27,817 bases of DNA, from the IMG/VR virus record IMGVR_UViG_3300003690_000084, positions 1-27,817 of that record; one strand, 5' to 3'. Shown here one piece after another: positions 2,769 through 27,744 of this stretch (the first letter of the stretch is position 1; the number at the start of each line of letters is the position of its first letter). Source of the DNA: a virus. The position numbers and the translations under genes were made by a program. The notes beneath the pieces are model-generated. The model did not search any database. It was not told the origin of the DNA and saw nothing but the letters and a program-made list of their open reading frames with translations.

Positions 2769-3256
2769 TGGCAGAAAACACAGAAAAAGTAGAAATTAAA
2801 GAACTTGCACAAACACAAATACTAGGTATGGATGATATAAAACAAACAACTACTACATCAATAGAAGATCTTGATGCTCGGAGAGATTCTGCACAACTTA
2901 CAGAAGAACCATTAGAACAACAAGAATATACTAGAGATTCAACAGAAAAAACTGTAGTGCAGTCTATTAGTACCAATGTGCAATCTAAACAAGACCGAGA
3001 AGAAGCATTGGCTTTAGGACTTCAACCACCTCTTGGAGCAGATAGTGTTAGTAAAGGACCTCAATATACAGATGAGCCTTCAGTATCAGCCTTTGCACAA
3101 GCCCCACCCGATGTCAATCCATCCATTATTCCCGATAATGTGGGGGGTGCAAGAATAAGCGGCTCTAGAGCTATCTCTAACTTTAGAGCCGCCATAAGTC
3201 CTAAAGGCTTAGCTCATTTCTGGAACATCCGTAGCAGTCTCATCTTGAGATGTTGA
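2768..3256 (+). CDS. Unknown acidic, low-complexity protein in the tail operon
   Basis: A 162-aa reading frame starting with the ATG overlapping the chaperone stop, with GGGGAGGA as a strong ribosome binding site. The first 130 residues are polar, rich in Thr, Glu, Gln and Asp, and without cysteine or tryptophan. This looks like a disordered N-terminal region of a structural or tape-measure-type protein. The frame then runs through the hairpin at 3161-3190 and overlaps the 3' end of gp32 by 48 nt, which is unusual. Around a run of six G (3142-3147) a +1 shift would give NVGVQE and a TAA at 3156-3158, right before the hairpin. The natural end may therefore be there, with the last 33 codons spurious. 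I recognise no family. Confidence 0.55.
   Translation: MAENTEKVEIKELAQTQILGMDDIKQTTTTSIEDLDARRDSAQLTEEPLEQQEYTRDSTEKTVVQSISTNVQSKQDREEALALGLQPPLGADSVSKGPQYTDEPSVSAFAQAPPDVNPSIIPDNVGGARISGSRAISNFRAAISPKGLAHFWNIRSSLILRC
3161..3190. terminator. Hairpin between convergent operons, probable terminator
   Basis: GGCTCTAGAG (3161-3170) pairs with CTTTAGAGCC (3181-3190) as a 10-bp stem with one G-U pair and a 10-nt loop. It sits between the end of the plus-strand tail operon and the end of gp32 on minus. There is no good T-tract on either side, so it may work with Rho or as an mRNA 3' end. Confidence 0.55.
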
Positions 3257-4036
3257 GATATCTTCTATAGTCGCATTAGTAACTTCATTGCAACGAATGT
3301 CATCTCCGATAACAGAACTGAGACGTTCTTTCAATTCATTATATGATTTGAAATTAGAAGAATCACTAAACGGCGTGAGCAGATATTGTTTCTTCCAAAG
3401 TTCTTCTAGCTGAGTATCATCACCATCAAACAAAGGGCTTAGTGAATCAAACTCAGACTTGTCATAATTGATGAATCCAGCAACTTTACGAACCTTTAAC
3501 TTAAAATTTGCACCAGCCCAGAAGTCAAACGGATTGATCTTCTCTTCATCTGCAAACTCAGGTTCCATAGATTCCTGAATCTTGTCAAAAATTCTCTTAC
3601 CATACTTGTAAAGAAAAACCTTACCCTCATTTTGAGGATTTGCAGGATCACTAATCACAAGAATGTTAGAGATATACTGGAGCTTACGCTTACGCGCTCG
3701 TGCGATATCCTTATCGCTCTCTATTCCACTATTCCAGAGTTCAGAGTTCATTTCTGAAACAGGATCCTTCTCACCAAGAGTCGTGCGAGAATTTTCGATA
3801 AACCACTGACCGCCTTTCCCCTGAAATGCATGAGAATAGAGCTTTGCCCAAGGAAGCTCTTCATTTGGAGGAGCAGGCAAGAATCGAATTATAGCATATC
3901 CATTACTCGCTTTATCGAGTTCTGGTCGCCAAAAACGATCATCCTTGTATGACTCTTTACCCGAACTTTCTTGAATCTTCTTTGAAAGTTTTTCAAGATT
4001 GCTCTTTGACCTACGTTTAAAATCTGAAAAATCCAT
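3209..4036 (-). CDS. 32: Single-stranded DNA-binding protein, T4 gp32-like
   Basis: A 275-aa gp32 homologue (T4: 301 aa). gp32 coats ssDNA cooperatively and organises replication, recombination and repair. The N-terminus has a LAST-type basic motif (FKRRSKSNLEK) that in T4 mediates cooperative self-interaction. The OB-fold core shows RFLPAPP, LPWAKLYSHAFQGKGGQWF, ENSRTTLGEKDPVSEMN, YISNILVISDPANPQNEG and KVFLYKYGKRIFDKI. The C-terminus is acidic (EDISTSQDETATDVPEMS), the region that contacts partner proteins. The zinc-binding cysteines of T4 gp32 are missing: the equivalent segment has no Cys. The ATG at 4036 has AAGGAT 8 nt upstream and is preceded by two tandem hairpins. The gene follows gp33, a T4-like order. 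Confidence 0.95.
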   Translation of the reverse strand: MDFSDFKRRSKSNLEKLSKKIQESSGKESYKDDRFWRPELDKASNGYAIIRFLPAPPNEELPWAKLYSHAFQGKGGQWFIENSRTTLGEKDPVSEMNSELWNSGIESDKDIARARKRKLQYISNILVISDPANPQNEGKVFLYKYGKRIFDKIQESMEPEFADEEKINPFDFWAGANFKLKVRKVAGFINYDKSEFDSLSPLFDGDDTQLEELWKKQYLLTPFSDSSNFKSYNELKERLSSVIGDDIRCNEVTNATIEDISTSQDETATDVPEMS

Positions 4037-9341: not shown

Positions 9342-10379
9342 TCAAGAATTTCCATACATCTCATTGAGCTGTCTATTTACTCGTACAAATGTAGTGCATT
9401 TTGGAAGATCTTTTATTCGTTGAGCACCCACATAAGTACAAGCAGATCTCAATCCACCTAAAATTTCTTTAAGAGTATTTTCTACAGAACCTTTATATGG
9501 AACTTGAACTGCTTTACCTTCCGCAACTTTATAAGAAGCTACTCCACCATTATATTTTTCCATTGCTCTCTCTGAAGACATTCCATAAAATTCTTTATAT
9601 TGAGTTCCAGTATTATCAACATATAATTTGCCAGCACATTCATCATGGCCTGCAAGCATAGAACCGAGCATCACAAAATCAGCACCAGCCCCGAATGCTT
9701 TTACTACATCACCGGGACAGACGCACCCACCATCCGCCATGATGTGGCCTCCTAACCCGTGTGCTGCGTCTGCACATTCGATGATCGCTGACAGTTGAGG
9801 ATATCCCACTCCTGTCATCTTTCTCGTGGTACACACACTTCCGGGGCCGACACCAACCTTGACAATATCTGCGCCTGCAAGGATGAGAGCTTCGGTCATT
9901 TCGGCTGATACTACATTCCCTGCTATAATTATTTTATGAGGCCATTTTTCTCTAACCTTCCGAATATAATCAATAAATCGTTGTGTATATCCATTCGCTA
10001 TATCTAAGCAAAAGAATTTAAAGTTTTCTGCATGAGAAGAAAATTCACTATCATATTCAAACAATTCATGTTCATCCTTCGCAGTAATGCCAAAAGTGAG
10101 TGCCATATAATGCTTTTCTTCTTTACTGCTTGGAACATTTCGTAATCTTTTATCTAAGCAAGTAATCATTTTATGGGAAGCTAATGCTTCTCCCATGTCA
10201 ATAGTTCCTATTGTATCCATGTTTGAAGCAACAATAGGAATTCCTGTCCAATCATATAATGAATACTTAAATTTAAAATCCCTCACAAGATCTACTTGAC
10301 TTCTACTGTTAAGTGTACTTCTTTTTGGTTTAAGAAGAACATCAGCAAAATCTAATTTTACACCATCTTCTATTCTCAT
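9342..10379 (-). CDS. guaC: GMP reductase
   Basis: A 345-aa protein very similar to bacterial GMP reductase (E. coli GuaC, 347 aa), which converts GMP to IMP and ammonia with NADPH. It has the TIM-barrel landmarks of the IMPDH/GMPR family: LDFADVLLKPKRSTLNSRS, PIVASNMDTIGT, FCLDIANGYTQRFI and IIAGNVVSAEM. The catalytic loop VGPGSVCTTRKMTGVGYPQ contains Cys183, and then come IECADAAHGLGG, ADGGCVCPGDVVKAFGAGAD and FYGMSSERAMEK. There is no CBS insertion, which fits GMPR rather than IMPDH. In the cell it would feed guanine nucleotides back toward IMP and the adenine branch, which would suit an AT-rich phage. The ATG overlaps the previous stop (TAATG), so it is coupled to the small genes upstream. 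Confidence 0.95.
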   Translation of the reverse strand: MRIEDGVKLDFADVLLKPKRSTLNSRSQVDLVRDFKFKYSLYDWTGIPIVASNMDTIGTIDMGEALASHKMITCLDKRLRNVPSSKEEKHYMALTFGITAKDEHELFEYDSEFSSHAENFKFFCLDIANGYTQRFIDYIRKVREKWPHKIIIAGNVVSAEMTEALILAGADIVKVGVGPGSVCTTRKMTGVGYPQLSAIIECADAAHGLGGHIMADGGCVCPGDVVKAFGAGADFVMLGSMLAGHDECAGKLYVDNTGTQYKEFYGMSSERAMEKYNGGVASYKVAEGKAVQVPYKGSVENTLKEILGGLRSACTYVGAQRIKDLPKCTTFVRVNRQLNEMYGNS

Positions 10380-11172: not shown

Positions 11173-11245
11173 CACCCTCGGTAGGAATTGCACCCACGAC
11201 CTAGTGATTAGAAGTCACTTGCTCTATCTCCTGAGCTACGAGGGC
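11173..11245 (-). tRNA. tRNA-Arg(UCU)
   Basis: A 73-nt cloverleaf: acceptor GCCCTCG/CGAGGGT, D-arm GCTC...GAGC, anticodon loop CTTCTAA (anticodon UCU, reading AGA/AGG), and T-stem GTGGG/CCTAC with the unusual T-loop TGCAATT. CCA is not encoded. Its first 10 nt overlap the 3' end of iscU, whose UAG stop lies at tRNA positions 8-10. Release of the tRNA would therefore cut the iscU mRNA. Confidence 0.93.
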
Positions 11246-11658
11246 AGATGTTCATCATCATCGATATTATTCTTTTTTTTATAATCGGCAATCGCACTAC
11301 GAATAGAATCTTCCGCAAGAACTGAACAATGAATCTTAACTGGAGGAAGGCTTAGTTCTTCAACAATCTGAGTATTCTTTATCGAAAGTGCCTCATCGAC
11401 CGTTCTGCCCTTGATCCACTCCGTGGCCAGCGAACTCGAAGCGATCGCGGATCCACACCCGAAGCACTTGAACTTGGCATCCTCGATGATGCCCTTGTCG
11501 TCCACCTTGATCTGGAGCTGCATGACATCGCCACACTCCGGGGCACCCACGATGCCCACTCCAATGTCGTTGCGATCACCGACCTCGGTTGAGGAACCGA
11601 ATGCGCCCACGTTTCGCGGGTTCTGGTAGTGATCCAATACCTTGTTGCTGTATGCCAT
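11236..11658 (-). CDS. iscU: Fe-S cluster scaffold IscU
   Basis: A 140-aa protein strongly resembling bacterial IscU (E. coli: 128 aa), which assembles [2Fe-2S] clusters from IscS-supplied sulfur and passes them to apoproteins with HscA/HscB. All cluster ligands are present: C42 and D44 (GAPECGDVM), C68 (FGCGSAIASSS) and H110/C111 (KIHCS). So is the HscA recognition motif LPPVK (104-108). Compared with E. coli there is a 5-residue insertion around residues 22-31, and an acidic DDDEHLPS tail that runs into tRNA-Arg. The middle of the gene is clearly richer in G+C than the neighbours, pointing to recent acquisition from a bacterium. The start has GGAG 10 nt upstream. No IscS, IscA or Hsc gene is in the window, so it must work with host partners. 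Confidence 0.95.
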   Translation of the reverse strand: MAYSNKVLDHYQNPRNVGAFGSSTEVGDRNDIGVGIVGAPECGDVMQLQIKVDDKGIIEDAKFKCFGCGSAIASSSLATEWIKGRTVDEALSIKNTQIVEELSLPPVKIHCSVLAEDSIRSAIADYKKKNNIDDDEHLPS

Positions 11659-14937: not shown

Positions 14938-15188
14938 CCTTCTTCATTCAATGGAACTCAGGGTTATTGTTATTACCTGAACCTTTCGGGGTGACCGTAC
15001 AATTTCTTTGTAGTGTACCCTAATTAGACTACTCCATATATCCCGCTAAGGATTATCTCTCAAGCACTTGCTCGTTGAAACAGGTCGCTAAACCATCCGT
15101 CGTCTGCACTATACCCAATCACGGGGTATTATTATGCGAGTCCCAGAAAGAGATGATCCATCTCTTTCCCTTTTTCTTCACTTGTCAA
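14938..15188 (-). other. Gene-free structured stretch 3' of tmRNA; possible ncRNA
   Basis: About 250 nt with no convincing gene, between the tmRNA 3' end and its terminator. The minus strand has a chain of possible hairpins. GAAAGAGAT/ATCTCTTTC (9 bp) comes right after the tmRNA. It is followed by TACCC/GGGTA, ATCC/GGAT, GTACA/TGTAC, and TTCAGG pairing with CCTGAG near the terminator. A 20-codon GTG frame (VIGYSADDGWFSDLFQRASA) exists but has no ribosome binding site. It could be a structured 3' tail trimmed from pre-tmRNA, or a separate small RNA. I do not recognise an RNA family. Confidence 0.4.
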
Positions 15189-15527
15189 TGGAGTCGGGGG
15201 GATTCGAACCCCCGTCCTGACTCATCTTTGTATAGTATACTACATGTTTAGTCTCTTGTCAAGACTCTTTCAGAAAAAAGAGACATTTTCTGGAAGAGTT
15301 TTGATGAGTTAATTTCGGTCTTGTTACCCATCAATCACTTCGACCTATCCGAAAATCCACACGCACCCTTCATCGGAGTCAAGAGATTGTGTTCGCGCCA
15401 TTAATTAGGCAGCGAGAGCGTAACTGTTATCGGCAGTTATCATTTGGGCGGCTTTTTACGAGGCCAACCGACCAACCTCGACATGCAACTATTACTCCAA
15501 CTAAACCAGTCGATACCATTCGACCCC
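15189..15527 (-). ncRNA. ssrA: Transfer-messenger RNA (tmRNA), one-piece
   Basis: A complete 339-nt tmRNA. The 5' end GGGGTCG pairs with the 3' end CGACTCC (including the G-U pair at position 3 that is typical of tmRNA), and discriminator A follows. CCA is not encoded. The T-arm is GGGGG-TTCGAAT-CCCCC, and the conserved GACTAAACATGTAG precedes the tRNA-like domain. The first pseudoknot region (GCATGTCGAGG, GGTTGGCCTCGTAAAAAGCC) closely follows E. coli tmRNA. The resume codon GCC is at 15434-15432. The tag frame reads ADNSYALAA and ends with TAA at 15407-15405, giving a YALAA degradation signal. tmRNA with SmpB frees stalled ribosomes and marks the unfinished protein for ClpXP. It begins 1 nt after the zinc-ribbon gene's stop, so it is processed from a mRNA. 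No smpB is visible here. Confidence 0.96.
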
Positions 15528-18195: not shown

Positions 18196-18339
18196 TTAAG
18201 TCAAAAGTAAAAGACCAAGTATAAAAATAGAAAAAATGACCAACAAAATAGTATTTATAGCTTCTAAAAGTGATAAATCGGGGAATTTTTCCCCAATTTT
18301 TAAAACTATACGCCTAAAGAGTGTTGGTTTTTTTAGCAT
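18196..18339 (-). CDS. 47-aa single-span membrane protein, leaderless
   Basis: A 47-aa protein from the ATG at 18339. A basic N-terminal part (MLKKPTLFRRIVLKIGEKFP) is followed by an acidic turn (DLSLLEAINT) and one transmembrane helix (ILLVIFSIFILGLLLLT) that ends the protein. A sigma70-type promoter is placed so that the ATG is at or next to the transcription start, with no ribosome binding site. Such basic-TM small proteins are often inner-membrane regulators (superinfection exclusion, lysis control). The role here is unknown. Confidence 0.6.
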   Translation of the reverse strand: MLKKPTLFRRIVLKIGEKFPDLSLLEAINTILLVIFSIFILGLLLLT

Positions 18340-18346
18340 TTGATTA

Positions 18347-18375
18347 ATTTTAACATAAAATTAGTTAAAAGTCAA
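18347..18375 (-). promoter_or_regulatory. Sigma70-type promoter adjacent to ATG
   Basis: TTGACT (18375-18370), a 17-nt spacer, TAAAAT (18352-18347), then 7 nt to the ATG at 18339. This is a minus-strand example of the leaderless arrangement seen repeatedly in the 24-27 kb region. Confidence 0.65.
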
Positions 18376-23888: not shown

Positions 23889-24363
23889 CTGTGTATGGAG
23901 AAACGCTATAACATTTAAAAGTAAAGAAGAACAACAGGCGTACTACAAAAAGAACAAAAAGAAGATGATAGATTCAAATCGAGAGAGAAGAAAGGATCCA
24001 GTCTATAGGGAGAATGAGAGTGATAGGGACAGGGATAGGCATCTTCGGAAGAAGTATGGTATAGGGATTGATGAATACAATCTTCTCCGTGAAGAGCAGG
24101 GGTACTGCTGTAAGATCTGTGGTAGGCATGAGAGTGAAATACGCCCGAAGAAAAGGACCCGTATCAAAGGTCGTCCAGTAGATTCGTTGGTGGTAGATCA
24201 TTGTCATGAGACGGGAGATATTCGGGGATTGATATGCACGAAATGTAATACTGGATTGGGAGCATTTAGAGATGATCCGGCATTACTTAGAAAAGGCATT
24301 GTGTATCTGGAAGAGAGTCTAGAGCCGACTCTGGGGGTAAAAAAATCTCCCGGCAAAAGCTAG
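23869..24363 (+). CDS. Endonuclease VII/HNH-type nuclease, start uncertain
   Basis: A 164-aa frame from an ATG at 23869. The C-terminal 95 residues are a clear recombination endonuclease VII-type domain: KKYGIGIDEYNLLREEQGYC, CKICGRHESE, then LVVDHCHETGDIRGLICTKC and NTGLGAFRDDPALL. Zinc cysteines come in two CxxC pairs (CKIC; CTKC), and DHCH is the catalytic beta-beta-alpha metal site. T4 endonuclease VII (gp49) resolves DNA branches before packaging, but this version is more like the free-standing HNH nucleases that move between phages. The N-terminal part is a charged helix (SKEEQQAYYKKNKKK). The promoter suggests a start at 23895 in another frame, so the beginning may be frameshifted. Confidence 0.78.
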   Translation: MGLCGIICVWRNAITFKSKEEQQAYYKKNKKKMIDSNRERRKDPVYRENESDRDRDRHLRKKYGIGIDEYNLLREEQGYCCKICGRHESEIRPKKRTRIKGRPVDSLVVDHCHETGDIRGLICTKCNTGLGAFRDDPALLRKGIVYLEESLEPTLGVKKSPGKS

Positions 24364-24501
24364 CATTTTTGGGAGTCCCATAAATACTTGTCCCATATAC
24401 TGTTAGGACAGAACGTCAAGGGGGTCGAACTTTATTCGATAAAATTAGGAGTTTCCCCTTGCATCGCTTGCATCCTCTCCCATTCCTGCTATAATAACAG
24501 C
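24364..24501 (+). other. Gene-free spacer before the early region
   Basis: 138 nt with TTGGGAGTCCCA (24369-24380), which resembles TTGGAGTCCCA before the endonuclease gene (23825-23835), a CATAAATA (7 of 8 late box) at about 24379-24386, and a TGTCC/GGACA hairpin. It ends with the first early-type promoter. Base composition changes from here onward. Confidence 0.4.
24468..24495 (+). promoter_or_regulatory. Extended -10 promoter, leaderless arrangement
   Basis: TTGCAT (24468-24473), a 16-nt spacer, TATAAT (24490-24495) with an extended TGn, then 6 nt to the ATG at 24502. With usual spacing the A of ATG is transcription position +1. Confidence 0.78.
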
Positions 24502-24888
24502 ATGACATCCAACCACTATGACCAACTCAAATTCGTGCGCACTCGCAACCGTATGATCGAGGGTGATCGCTTCCTCTTCCAAACCGTCTGGAGCTTCTCC
24601 GATGACGGGATCAATGAGGAAGTCTACATCGTCTCCGCAGTCGTGAGCGTCACTAATGAGCGACTATGTGAAACATACGTTTACCCCGCTCTGGACGCTA
24701 ACGGTAACGACTTCAGTGCTAACGAAGTCTTCACCTCTTCCGACTTCAAGGGACATCACCACGATCATAAGCTGTTACTAGGTGAGTACTTACGGAAGTG
24801 CGCACGCGAGCAACGCGACGAATCACGACAATGCGGGATATCCCTCGAACATTTCTTCAATTCCGCTCGAAAATCTCTTGACCACTAA
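24502..24888 (+). CDS. Unknown early protein, leaderless
   Basis: A 128-aa protein from the ATG at 24502. A longer frame back to 24388 is unlikely because it covers the promoter. The sequence begins MTSNHYDQLKFVRTRNRMIE and has a beta-rich middle (RFLFQTVWSFSDDGINEEVY, then IVSAVVSVTNE). A polar end holds several histidines (DFKGHHHDHKLLLGEYLRKC) and SRQCGISLEHFFNSARKSLD. Metal binding through the His cluster is possible. No family recognised. Confidence 0.6.
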   Translation: MTSNHYDQLKFVRTRNRMIEGDRFLFQTVWSFSDDGINEEVYIVSAVVSVTNERLCETYVYPALDANGNDFSANEVFTSSDFKGHHHDHKLLLGEYLRKCAREQRDESRQCGISLEHFFNSARKSLDH

Positions 24889-24906
24889 CCCCCTCTGGAG
24901 TACAAT
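24878..24906 (+). promoter_or_regulatory. Sigma70-type promoter, leaderless arrangement
   Basis: TTGACC (24878-24883), a 17-nt spacer, TACAAT (24901-24906), then ACACTC and the ATG at 24913. The -35 box overlaps the last codons of the preceding gene. Confidence 0.8.
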
Positions 24907-24912
24907 ACACTC

Positions 24913-25224
24913 ATGGAAAACACTACCACAATGCACAGCAACTTCGACGACAATTTCAATATCGATCTCCCTGCGGAGATCGAGGACCTTCACGATGAGA
25001 ACACCGAATGGGAGCGCGTCACGCTCCAGCTCGAAGATCAGGAGCGTTGGGACAACGACGAACTGCTCGACGATCCGGACAACGAACCGCTCGACGATCC
25101 CGACGTTTACACCCTCGACGATCCGTCCGAAGACGACTCGTGGGACGACGCGGATACCTTCACCTCGATTGGTTGGGGAATCGATGAAGACTACGGACTC
25201 TTTGAAGAGCAGGAGAATTGGTGA
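24913..25224 (+). CDS. Extremely acidic early protein, possible DNA mimic
   Basis: A 103-aa protein with about 38 Asp/Glu and only 2 Arg and no Lys by my count, so a net charge near -36. Acidic residues are spaced along the whole chain, with three LDDP repeats (LLDDPDNEPLDDPDVYTLDD) in the middle and an aromatic C-terminal part (IGWGIDEDYGLFEEQENW). Early phage proteins of this size and charge include DNA mimics such as T7 Ocr, which block restriction enzymes or other DNA-binding proteins. This comparison is by composition, not homology. The start MENTTTMHS shows the Thr-rich opening shared by several early genes. Confidence 0.7.
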   Translation: MENTTTMHSNFDDNFNIDLPAEIEDLHDENTEWERVTLQLEDQERWDNDELLDDPDNEPLDDPDVYTLDDPSEDDSWDDADTFTSIGWGIDEDYGLFEEQENW

Positions 25225-25482
25225 ATGGACTCTTTCCTTGACTACATCAAGCTCGACGACAATGGTGCAACCCTCTGCGCATATGATCAAGGATTCGTCG
25301 ATCCCGACAAGGAAGGGAATGTCGTTTTCTTCCTTGAACGAACGACGCAATGGAATGAGGATTCGGTTGCGCTCACGACGATCCAAGCGCGTGCTCTCTT
25401 CCTCCTCCTCCCCAGATCAACCGTTTCCCAGTGGTACGAGTGGAAGCTCGCACTCGGTGGAATGACCCTGAAGTACGCTTGA
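25225..25482 (+). CDS. Unknown early protein
   Basis: An 85-aa protein whose ATG directly follows the stop of the acidic gene, so it is coupled to it. The N-terminal half is beta-like and acidic (MDSFLDYIKLDDNGATLCAY, VVFFLERTTQW). The C-terminal half has a leucine-rich helix (TIQARALFLLLPRSTVSQWY) and ends EWKLALGGMTLKYA. No recognised domain. Base use is GC-richer, like its neighbours. Confidence 0.6.
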   Translation: MDSFLDYIKLDDNGATLCAYDQGFVDPDKEGNVVFFLERTTQWNEDSVALTTIQARALFLLLPRSTVSQWYEWKLALGGMTLKYA

Positions 25483-25492
25483 CATTACACTC

Positions 25493-25711
25493 ATGAAAAC
25501 CACCCCCAGAATGACCCGCTCTCACTACCAGTTCCTAGCAGACTTTCTCAACGACTACGCTCAGGATCTTCACATCTCCCCATGCGATCACATCATCCTC
25601 GCAGTACGAATGCAAAGCGCACTCATGGGAACAAACCCCAACTTCGACGCTCAACGATTCTACAACGCAGCGACGAAGGACCTGGAACGAGATTCGCAGG
25701 AGGTGGTATGA
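25493..25711 (+). CDS. Unknown early protein
   Basis: A 72-aa protein, mostly helical: MTRSHYQFLADFLNDYAQDL, HISPCDHIILAVRMQSALMG and FDAQRFYNAATKDLERD. It starts 10 nt after the upstream stop. The ten bases TACACTCATG around its start are identical to those at the acidic gene's start (24913), and it also begins Met-Lys-Thr-Thr-Pro (ATGAAAACCACCCC). A GACATT 6 nt before the ATG could be a weak -10 box. It overlaps the next gene by 4 nt. Confidence 0.58.
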   Translation: MKTTPRMTRSHYQFLADFLNDYAQDLHISPCDHIILAVRMQSALMGTNPNFDAQRFYNAATKDLERDSQEVV

Positions 25712-25905
25712 TGAAAACCAAGAACCTCCGCACCGGGATGAAAGTCCGCTTCCGGGGATCGAAAACCGAAACGATCTACAAGATCATCGGACGCGATCCG
25801 GAAATGAACCGGCGGTTCGTAGTCGGACATGACGAAGACGAAGATGGAAGCGGATATCGAGTCACCATTCACTACGTACACGAAACAGCATTGGAGCGAG
25901 CATGA
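25708..25905 (+). CDS. Small SH3-like early protein
   Basis: A 65-aa protein from the ATG at 25708 (or the next ATG at 25711), with GGAGGT just before it. Strands such as LRTGMKVRFRGSKTETIYKI, RFVVGHDEDEDGSGYRVTIH look like a small beta barrel of the type used to bind nucleic acid or peptides. This is inference. It overlaps the previous stop (ATGA) and its own stop overlaps the next ATG, giving a tight coupled run of genes. Confidence 0.55.
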   Translation: MMKTKNLRTGMKVRFRGSKTETIYKIIGRDPEMNRRFVVGHDEDEDGSGYRVTIHYVHETALERA

Positions 25906-26093
25906 ACTTCCCCATTGGATGGAAAGTCAAAGGCATCGACGGAAACGATTATCGAATCCTCGCAGCAGATCACGACCACGGAACCTACCTGATCGCGGAG
26001 ATCGCCGGCTTCGACGAAGACAGCGACCTTGGCCCTCTTCACCCCCGTTCCTACCTTTTCACCTGCCAGGTGGAAGAAAGACTCATCTCATGA
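25902..26093 (+). CDS. Small beta-rich early protein
   Basis: A 63-aa protein overlapping the previous gene by ATGA. MNFPIGWKVKGIDGNDYRIL, AADHDHGTYLIAEIAGFDED, then RSYLFTCQVEERLIS: alternating strands with a GWKVKGIDGNDYRIL opening similar in layout to its upstream neighbour, so the two may be related small barrels. No family is recognised. Confidence 0.55.
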   Translation: MNFPIGWKVKGIDGNDYRILAADHDHGTYLIAEIAGFDEDSDLGPLHPRSYLFTCQVEERLIS

Positions 26094-26377
26094 GTAGCCT
26101 CTACGAAATTGAATCCGCAGTCGAAGACTACATCCGGGGCCATTATTACCCCGAGGACTTCGACGAACTCGCGCCCGATGATGTCGAGACGGACATGGAT
26201 GAACTCTTCGAGAACACCATCGATGGCGTCATCGAAGAGATCGCAGATCGGGCACAGGGGGACCTGGACGGGATGGTCACAGATTGGTGCAACAATTACC
26301 AAGGCCAGATCGACGAGGAGTTTGAAAGCCAGATCGTAACCGCCGTCGAATCAGGCAACTACGTGATCGAAAAATGA
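26090..26377 (+). CDS. Acidic early protein
   Basis: A 95-aa protein from the ATG at 26090 (overlap ATGA). A longer frame from 25829 is not used. Acidic residues are frequent throughout (GHYYPEDFDELAPDDVETDM, DELFENTIDGVIEEIADRAQ), with few basic residues. It is predicted helical with a short CNNYQGQIDEEFESQIV segment near the end. It is the last gene of the coupled run and is followed by GC-rich hairpins. A regulatory or mimic role is possible but unsupported. Confidence 0.55.
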   Translation: MSSLYEIESAVEDYIRGHYYPEDFDELAPDDVETDMDELFENTIDGVIEEIADRAQGDLDGMVTDWCNNYQGQIDEEFESQIVTAVESGNYVIEK

Positions 26378-26537
26378 AGGGCTCTGGCCCCATTCCCCTC
26401 GATCATTCGAGGACTGGCGCGCCAACCTATGGCTCCGGGGGCGGTCCCCGGAGTCAACTCAGATTGACTATAACAGGGCTGTGCTCAGGGGTAAGTAAGA
26501 TGTGAAACAGAAAAATAATATTGTTTATATTGTGGAG
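26378..26537 (+). other. Gene-free stretch with three GC-rich inverted repeats
   Basis: Perfect inverted repeats in a row: CCTCGA-TCAT-TCGAGG (26397-26412), the palindrome TGGCGCGCCA (26415-26424), and CTCCGGGG-GCGGT-CCCCGGAG (26433-26453). None is followed by a U-tract. A GTG frame (26502-26738) reads through the next terminator and a promoter and is not accepted. This could be the end of the early operon's mRNA or a small RNA ending at the terminator. Confidence 0.45.
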
Positions 26538-26576
26538 ACCGAGGCTACCCGGAAACGGCCCTCGGTTTTCTTTCTT
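26538..26576 (+). terminator. Rho-independent terminator
   Basis: ACCGAGG (26538-26544) pairs with CCTCGGT (26560-26566), with an inner CCG-GAAA-CGG hairpin, followed by TTTTCTTTCTT. It closes the transcript coming from the early operon or from a possible small RNA. Confidence 0.85.
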
Positions 26577-26598
26577 GAGAATATTCGAATATTCTCAA
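26575..26598. promoter_or_regulatory. 24-bp perfect palindrome, likely operator
   Basis: TTGAGAATATT, CG, then its exact mirror AATATTCTCAA: a 24-bp palindrome lying 19 bp upstream of the -35 box of the next promoter and directly after a terminator. It is typical of a dimeric repressor site. It has no T-tract, so it is not a terminator. Confidence 0.7.
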
Positions 26599-26616
26599 TA
26601 ATATGGCTTATGCCTA

Positions 26617-26644
26617 TTGACATCCTGCCTGATCCTGTTATAAT
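26617..26644 (+). promoter_or_regulatory. Strong sigma70 promoter, leaderless arrangement
   Basis: TTGACA (26617-26622), a 16-nt spacer, TATAAT (26639-26644) with an extended TGn, then ACTTAC and the ATG at 26651. Both hexamers match consensus. The palindrome upstream suggests it is regulated. Confidence 0.85.
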
Positions 26645-26650
26645 ACTTAC

Positions 26651-27286
26651 ATGGAAACCACCACCACCACCAAAGGCTCCAAGAATATCATCGCTGTCTT
26701 CGATCTCGCCTCAGCAGGTGAAGTCGAGGAGGGACTGAACTGGTACGCACGAGCCGAACGCATCGCGTGCCGCTTGTCTCATGACTACGACATCGACATG
26801 GAAACATGCGCCGGTGTCATCGCTGCGCTCAGCCCGAACAACCGTTGGGAGCGGAACACGGTTGATGCCGAGAACATCATCCGCGCCTATGTTGATGGCT
26901 CACCCGATGACGCCCTAAACGTCAAGGTCTGCACCTATGGGAAGATGAAAGAAAAGGCTGTCCGCGTTCTCGAATCAAGTGGCACTACTGAGGAGATTGC
27001 TAGGATTCTGAACGGCAGGAAGATCACCGCATTCTTCTACTGCATCATCGGATCGCACGACCATGTCTGCATCGACGGACATGCCTACAGCATCTGGTTT
27101 GGTGACCGCCTCACGATGAAGGACGTGCCGAACATTGGCAAGCGCCTCTGCAATTGCATTACCGAGGACTACGTGGCTGCAACTGAACAAATCAACAACT
27201 CCTTCGGACATCAGGAATTGACCCCCTACCAGGTCCAAGCCATCACATGGTGCGCCTGGAGACGACTCCACGGTGTGACGAAATAA
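26651..27286 (+). CDS. Conserved phage protein, possible DNA-glycosylase-like fold
   Basis: A 211-aa protein. It opens METTTTTKG, then has AGVIAALSPNNRWERNTVDA and NGRKITAFFYCIIGS followed by VCIDGHAYSIWFG. It ends in a helical part (TPYQVQAITWCAWRRLHG). The 'ALSP...W..N', 'K..AF...I.G', 'V.ID.HA' and 'Y..QAITW' segments recur in a phage/plasmid family of unknown function whose layout recalls HhH-GPD base-excision glycosylases. I am not sure of that link. It is probably expressed early from the consensus promoter directly before it, without a leader. It is followed by another leaderless gene. Confidence 0.6.
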   Translation: METTTTTKGSKNIIAVFDLASAGEVEEGLNWYARAERIACRLSHDYDIDMETCAGVIAALSPNNRWERNTVDAENIIRAYVDGSPDDALNVKVCTYGKMKEKAVRVLESSGTTEEIARILNGRKITAFFYCIIGSHDHVCIDGHAYSIWFGDRLTMKDVPNIGKRLCNCITEDYVAATEQINNSFGHQELTPYQVQAITWCAWRRLHGVTK

Positions 27287-27300
27287 ATACTGAGAACCTC

Positions 27301-27329
27301 TTGACAACCACCCCAGAACAAGGTACAAT
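27301..27329 (+). promoter_or_regulatory. Sigma70 promoter, leaderless arrangement
   Basis: TTGACA (27301-27306), a 17-nt spacer, TACAAT (27324-27329), ATACGC, then the ATG at 27336. The layout is the same as at 24878-24913. Confidence 0.82.
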
Positions 27330-27335
27330 ATACGC

Positions 27336-27503
27336 ATGACAACCACCACCGATACAACCTACAATGGCTACACGAACTACGCGATGTACGATAACCTCGA
27401 AGAACAGGACTGGGCATGGATTCTCGCAGACGGCGAAGACATCTGGGATGCACTTGCACCCTACTCAATCCTCGCACAGGATGAGGATGACGATGAACGA
27501 TAA
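27336..27503 (+). CDS. Small acidic early protein, leaderless
   Basis: A 55-aa protein from the ATG at 27336. It begins with four Thr codons (MTTTTDTTYNGYTNYAMYDN) and ends in a strongly acidic tail (SILAQDEDDDER). The middle has tryptophans (QDWAWILADGEDIWDALAP). It overlaps the next gene by 11 nt in another frame. No family is recognised. Confidence 0.6.
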   Translation: MTTTTDTTYNGYTNYAMYDNLEEQDWAWILADGEDIWDALAPYSILAQDEDDDER

Positions 27504-27744
27504 GACTGCACTGTTCTTCACAAAGGACGAAATCCTCGACGTTCTAGATATACTGGAGGATGCCCGTTTCCGCGTACAAGTCGCACGTTCTCTTGAGGAA
27601 GGCTCAAACTTTCGCTGCGAACGAACCATTGATGGACTGGACGATCTGATTCACCGATTCAATTTGGCAACCAGTTGCACTAAATTCGAGAAGGACCGAA
27701 ATTCGGGCTTGACAAACGACCCAGATGGATGGTATAATGGATGA
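27493..27744 (+). CDS. Unknown early protein
   Basis: An 83-aa protein from the ATG at 27493 (a longer frame from 27364 has no plausible start signal). It begins MNDKTALFFTKDEILDVLDI, is helical and charged (EDARFRVQVARSLEEGSNFR, GLDDLIHRFNLATSCTKFEK), and ends DPDGWYNG. It overlaps the upstream gene by 11 nt and holds the next promoter in its last codons. No family recognised. Confidence 0.55.
   Translation: MNDKTALFFTKDEILDVLDILEDARFRVQVARSLEEGSNFRCERTIDGLDDLIHRFNLATSCTKFEKDRNSGLTNDPDGWYNG
27709..27738 (+). promoter_or_regulatory. Sigma70 promoter at the window's end
   Basis: TTGACA (27709-27714), an 18-nt spacer, TATAAT (27733-27738): consensus boxes inside the previous gene's end. The first in-frame ATG after the expected start of transcription is at 27764, with AAGGA 14 nt upstream. 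Confidence 0.75.

Follow-up and report, generated by a model that had tools for sequence, protein, structure and literature searches.

How are the genes at the end of a T4-like phage contig translated when their promoters leave no room for a ribosome binding site? We addressed this question in the 27,817-base viral contig IMGVR_UViG_3300003690_000084 from IMG/VR (the whole stretch analysed, hereafter the window), whose 24.4-27.8 kb block carries sigma70-type promoters ending 6 nucleotides (nt) before ATG start codons. We consider it highly probable that this block is an array of sigma70 leaderless cassettes with C/A-rich starts, probably devoted to early host takeover, and the leaderless design itself appears very likely from the sequence. 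In the proposed mechanism, host sigma70 RNA polymerase would read the block as a series of single-gene or short-operon cassettes, each promoter would place +1 on the A of ATG, with C at -1, and the first gene of each unit would be made as a leaderless mRNA whose 5'-terminal AUG is recognised by ribosomes. The C/A-rich, G-poor codons 2-9 would leave the 5' end unstructured and similar to a CA repeat, which should increase initiation, while genes further along each unit would be read from ordinary Shine-Dalgarno (SD) sites.

The 6-nt gap between promoter and ATG, claimed in a preliminary description of this DNA, was recovered at four plus-strand starts. The promoter TTGCAT-16-TATAAT (24468-24501, discriminator AACAGC) precedes a gene for 128 amino acids (aa) without a family match (24502-24888, start ACATCCAACCACTAT), and no protein relatives of its product were found. 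Overlapping the 3' end of that gene, TTGACC-17-TACAAT (24878-24912, discriminator ACACTC) precedes a gene for an acidic orphan of 103 aa (24913-25224, MENTTT...). The consensus promoter TTGACA-16-TATAAT (26617-26650, discriminator ACTTAC) leads to a DUF7178 gene (26651-27286, METTTTT...), and TTGACA-17-TACAAT (27301-27335, discriminator ATACGC) to a gene for 55 aa (27336-27503, MTTTTDTT...). All four have C at -1, and a gap-6 promoter would arise by chance at any one start with P <= 0.002 (60 nt upstream shuffled). Among plus-strand ATGs of the block that open at least 40 codons, the only other one with a promoter-like site 0-25 nt upstream is an in-frame ATG inside the 24913 gene. The weakest -35 element of the four belongs to 24502 (3/6 consensus), which the stricter counts below omit, so that the window contributes three genes there. 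The 24 nt after ATG hold 19, 19, 21 and 21 A+C in these genes against 13-20 in six other block genes (a difference equalled in 4/210 permutations); a count of 19 or more occurs in 0.26% of internal windows.

The first genes therefore show the sequence features by which leaderless genes are recognised, namely a -10 element placing +1 at or near the start codon and no SD in the predicted transcript. The latter follows from the promoter-ATG geometry, and SD-like matches near 24913 and 27336 fall upstream of the predicted +1. Ribosome binding sites had been described as absent from the listed starts, and this was borne out for the promoter-proximal ones; the block genes at 25225, 25711, 25902 and 27493 are preceded by SDs, so the leaderless type is limited to promoter-proximal genes.

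DUF7178 relatives in cyanophages and other viral contigs, which lack the leaderless arrangement, first suggested that the pattern was a private oddity of the window, an idea ruled out by DNA-pattern scans that found arrays elsewhere. In a search of viral records with the window's start code, and in a second scan with TTGACA-N15-GGTACAAT-N-C-ATG that specified nothing past the ATG and added further array records, the cassette TTGACA-N17-TACAAT-N6-ATG was found in dense arrays in at least 13 viral records beyond the window. Strict gap-6 counts over whole records were 22 in G001 (146 kb), 16 in G002 (79 kb), 6 in G003, 10 in G004, 2 in G005 and 7 in G006; in these six, a 9-nt-gap control gave 0-2 per record (6 in total vs 63 at gap 6), and reversed-pattern controls gave 0 at gap 6 and 1 at gap 9. 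Among the matches listed by the second scan, gap 6 accounted for 51 gene-opening open reading frames (ORFs) with 18.1 A+C per 24 nt, and other gaps for at most 4 each. Most cassettes sit in a single block in G001, G002 and G004. Among the matches listed, mostly to tRNAs, no isolate carrying the G002 array at the DNA level was seen.

Over the 14 records, the gap was 6 nt at 126 genes, 7 nt at 8, and every other length from 0 to 20 nt at no more than 4; related records were counted together and are not independent, so that P values given here are nominal. The preliminary description had named the lack of any surplus of 6-nt gaps beyond chance as a refuting result, and in the window and the related array records that surplus is very large. 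C stands at -1 in 115/127 cassettes. These counts bear on the improbable alternative that the ATGs are not 5'-terminal, with transcripts starting 1-3 nt away or well upstream, translation from short leaders or by another mechanism, and the spacing reflecting promoter packing. Such an offset would agree with the 1-2 nt by which sigma70 starts vary around their preferred position, but packing alone predicts neither one exact gap (126 vs <=8) nor the near-fixed C.

We then considered what follows the ATG. Of 49 array genes, 48 have a 17-nt spacer, 39 have TTGACA as the -35 and 48 have C at -1; their discriminators are rich in A/C. The first 24 nt past the ATG average 18.0 A+C, compared with 12.2 at internal positions of these genes (P = 6e-10) and 12.3 at SD-led starts of the same blocks (P = 2e-8), a comparison set drawn by a simple motif rule and including some doubtful ORFs. 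In the 127 genes of the 14 records, synonymous third positions were A or C at a frequency of 0.771 in codons 2-9 vs 0.545 later in the same genes (P = 5e-46), with 0.582 at SD starts. The opening 40 nt of these genes are predicted to fold weakly, at a mean of -2.05 kcal/mol vs -8.8 for internal stretches and -4.3 where an SD leads the gene. The CA-rich starts noted earlier thus hold for the four window genes and for the array class, down to synonymous positions. Since those positions are shifted too, selection must act on RNA and not on the peptide alone: the C/A bias is a nucleotide-level, RNA-level feature, and it is likely, judging from these patterns, that the CA-rich start was selected for expression.

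Residues 2-9 are also enriched in Thr (5.8% to 21.7%) and Asn (4.8% to 13.3%), as expected if M-x-T-T N-termini were a trait common to these proteins (signal, tag or modification site), with the C/A-rich DNA as its by-product. This explanation is quite improbable: besides the shift at synonymous positions, Thr itself is written ACC in 177/220 cases at the start vs 347/651 later, and SD-led neighbours do not have Thr/Asn-rich starts.

Whether the block departs from ordinary practice was judged against an unbiased scan (TTGACA-N16-18-TATAAT-N3-12-ATG) of viral contigs and bacterial genomes. Among the matches listed, 46/71 gene-opening ATGs in viral contigs lay at gap 6 or 7, vs 20% expected (P = 3e-16), and 10/28 did so in bacterial genomes (P = 0.055); the two shares differ (Fisher P = 0.013). 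As judged by promoter spacing, leaderless-type starts are common across viral contigs and of an already known kind. Those in the unbiased viral sample show a slight C/A bias and mostly T at -1, and a general CA enrichment was ruled out, with 12.0 A+C per 21 nt at gap 6 vs 12.9 at gaps 8-12. It follows that the CA start and C at -1 mark the cassette class and not leaderless genes generally. The coordinated expression code proposed earlier is supported with this qualification and with its early timing no more than likely. The CA pattern was also considered as a marker of gap 6 and left unused, the first CA scan giving no clear excess over the unbiased sample once near-identical contigs had been merged by eye.

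The unbiased sample is pertinent to the alternative that the phage simply follows its host, which would translate many of its own genes leaderless, so that the block merely uses host-style promoters and is not special. This remains a serious if unlikely account. Many genes of Actinobacteria and Deinococcus-Thermus are leaderless (PMC3160421), and consensus promoters in the unbiased viral sample likewise peak at gap 6-7. However, the remaining phage genome uses SD sites, unbiased viral leaderless-type starts have little C/A bias and mostly T rather than C at -1, and a one-piece transfer-messenger RNA (tmRNA) and an IscU-like gene hint, weakly, at a proteobacterial rather than a cyanobacterial host.

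We continue to favour a dedicated array of leaderless cassettes, against which several points weigh. Were most host genes themselves leaderless, the array would simply reflect the practice of the host. C/A-rich gene starts could serve general accessibility, and PMC9031893 reports the CA enhancer for leadered mRNA as well. Only three or four window genes show the pattern, the contig ends inside the block, and all of the evidence, that for timing included, is drawn from sequence. The T4-late-like motif TATAAATA, used below in assigning timing, exceeds expectation in the window alone by 7 vs 3.1, which is within the shuffle range.

With respect to timing, the block carries the T4 early-class signature of host sigma70 promoters without the late motif TATAAATA, the same rule having been applied in a study of another T4-like phage (PMC9004378). 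Over the records, that motif exceeds the shuffle mean where the sequence is AT-rich, and the arrays have none. An early host-takeover role is thus the most likely one because of promoter type, location and the missing late motifs, and early timing of the block genes appears likely on these grounds.

The location is best seen from the layout of the window. It is T4-like, encoding a gene product (gp) 4 homologue (929-1378) with ~54% identity to cyanomyovirus gp4 and a gp32 (3209-4036) with 64% identity to that of Synechococcus phage S-T4, and by these two it has Kyanoviridae-type core genes. From position 1 to ~23.4 kb it is AT-rich, its genes are mostly SD-led, and this part holds six RNA genes, including the one-piece tmRNA, and T4-late-like TATAAATA sites. 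Near 24.3 kb the G+C content (GC) rises from ~36-43% to 53%, and from ~24.4 kb to the end it stays at ~53%, with GC at third codon positions of ~50-70% and no Pfam or PHROGs match other than DUF7178. The jump in GC might be taken as the seam of a chimeric assembly, with the GC-rich end coming from another phage. We regard this as very improbable, as G001 has the same jump beside the same kind of MK(T/S)F-ITE proteins and the arrays lie 19-30 kb beyond gp4 in G001 and G002 (~24 kb in the window). In both records the array block has 50-60% GC vs ~38-44% in most other fetched parts.

Homologues of the window gp4 (50-58% identity) were found in G001, G002, G003, G008, G010, G013, G014 and G015, and gp23 in G001, G002, G013 and G015; gp4, gp32 and the GMP reductase gene are colinear in the window, G001 and G002. 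No gp4 match was found in the array records G004, G009, G011, G012 and G016-G019, several of which are fragments. Kyanoviridae such as S-T4, taken as the nearest isolate among those tested, have a T4-like core in common with the window, but the 181 kb of S-T4 contain not one start at gap 6 or gap 7. Isolated gap-6 leaderless-type starts occur in other T4-like contigs recovered through gp4, on the minus strand in each case (L027, 13379; L054, 17770; L074, 17839).

Leaderless initiation and its dependence on a 5' AUG are established (PMC9031893), and in bacterial leaderless genes TANNNT lies ~12 bp before the start, as in Actinobacteria and Deinococcus-Thermus (PMC3160421, PMC12340547). The cassettes resemble these genes in a promoter placement that predicts transcription from the A of ATG and in a first gene without SD; unlike them, they have a near-consensus -35, a fixed 17-nt spacer, a near-invariant C at -1 and C/A-rich codons 2-9, and sit in a dedicated block while other phage genes use SDs. 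In the Thermus phage phiYS40, most middle and late transcripts lack a leader, and altered IF2/IF3 have been proposed to favour them (PMC3594737). A phage gene class would likewise be made as leaderless mRNA here, judging by its promoters, but through one sigma70 cassette per gene, in likely early genes of T4-like phages, rather than in middle and late genes in a leaderless-rich host. The predicted leaderless promoters PL1 and PR2 of cluster O mycobacteriophages (PMC4351075) and that of lambda cI (PMC9031893) are single promoters that form no array and for which a CA-rich start code has not been reported. A CA-repeat translation enhancer is known from individual E. coli mRNAs (Martin-Farmer and Janssen 1999, as cited in PMC9031893); the cassettes share the C/A-rich stretch directly past the AUG and differ in showing it as a natural, recurrent sequence bias. 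A published description of such arrays was not found in the open-access literature, subscription papers lying outside the search. Leaderless initiation and the CA enhancer are both known, and the array-wide cassette joining them appears to be new.

Work on leaderless initiation has so far centred on a handful of model genes and on bacteria in which it is widespread, and a phage lineage that appears to apply the leaderless rule in one block and SDs elsewhere would offer a natural contrast within one genome. With TTGACA-N17-TACAAT-N6-ATG, C at -1 and C/A-rich codons 2-9 as a rule, such genes can be located in virus sequence that lacks annotation and their start codons fixed, and the cassette could be put to use as a compact part for leaderless expression. 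More tentatively, and stopping a little short of an even chance, we propose that a widespread aquatic T4-like clade has turned its host-takeover region into plug-in cassettes of ~60 nt (promoter, leaderless AUG, CA-rich ramp), read via the 5' AUG independently of SD, so that no translation leader would be needed for takeover genes to be acquired, lost or reshuffled.

The remaining block genes all lie on the plus strand. The gene at 25225-25482 (SD GCAGGAGA) is an internal member of the 24913 unit, three small overlapping genes (25711, 25902 and 26090; 25711-26377) are SD-led or coupled, with a weaker purine stretch upstream of 26090 than the SDs elsewhere in the block, and 27493-27744 (SD GATGAGGAT) overlaps the gene before it. 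The gene at 25493-25711, starting 10 nt past the preceding stop, does have the CA-rich start (MKTTP) attributed to it and lacks an SD; it was ruled out as a fifth leaderless case because it has no promoter at 6 nt, TTGACA lying just a few nt before its ATG. The set had been drawn as far as 27738, and the promoter near that position (TTGACA-18-TATAAT, 27710-27744, plus strand) is not a 6-nt case, as it extends over the putative start codon of the last ORF (MDEKELDEL) at the contig end. Upstream of the 26651 promoter, a near-perfect, operator-like palindrome (26572-26601, inverted repeat TTCTTGAGAATATTC/GAATATTCTCAATAA) comes after a terminator-like hairpin.

Two further starts lie outside the block. 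On the minus strand, an isolated leaderless-type promoter (18340-18375, TTGACT-17-TAAAAT-7 nt-ATG, no SD), with the 7-nt spacing first reported, would drive the gene 18196-18339. At 23895 the 6-nt spacing is real, and a normal gene start was ruled out: the ATG opens only 7 codons (ATTTAAAAG, MEKRYNI-stop), out of frame with the endonuclease VII-like gene (23893-24363, plus strand), whose sole promoter-proximal ATG it is. A frameshift, an assembly error or a leaderless micro-ORF could each account for it.

DUF7178 genes are leaderless-type in the window, G008, G011 and G015, and this arrangement was not seen in a further 16 DUF7178 loci, of which many come from cyanophages or contigs like theirs. 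The predicted DUF7178 structure (mean confidence, pLDDT, 89.8) resembles archaeal 8-oxoguanine DNA glycosylases (TM ~0.5, E-values no better than 0.01), so that a glycosylase-like fold is a lead only. Array genes of leaderless type in two records encode WYL_2 (PF10902) proteins (L121, 4638; L461, 3952, minus strand), and an AAA ATPase gene (AAA_5, CbbQ-like C-terminus) directly follows the G002 array (L443 1043-2431 / L121 9097-10485). In the AT-rich part of the window, the phage-encoded one-piece tmRNA (15186-15527, minus strand) specifies the tag ADNSYALAA and is accompanied by five tRNAs (Leu-TAA, Arg-TCT, Asn-GTT, Lys-TTT and Ile-TAT). A GMP reductase/IMP dehydrogenase-like enzyme (9342-10379, minus strand) is kept in G001 and G002, and an IscU/NifU-like Fe-S scaffold gene (11236-11658, minus strand), whose protein has up to 67% identity to IscU-like proteins in phage records, stands out with a GC of 0.50 amid AT-rich surroundings and is possibly a recent acquisition from a host.

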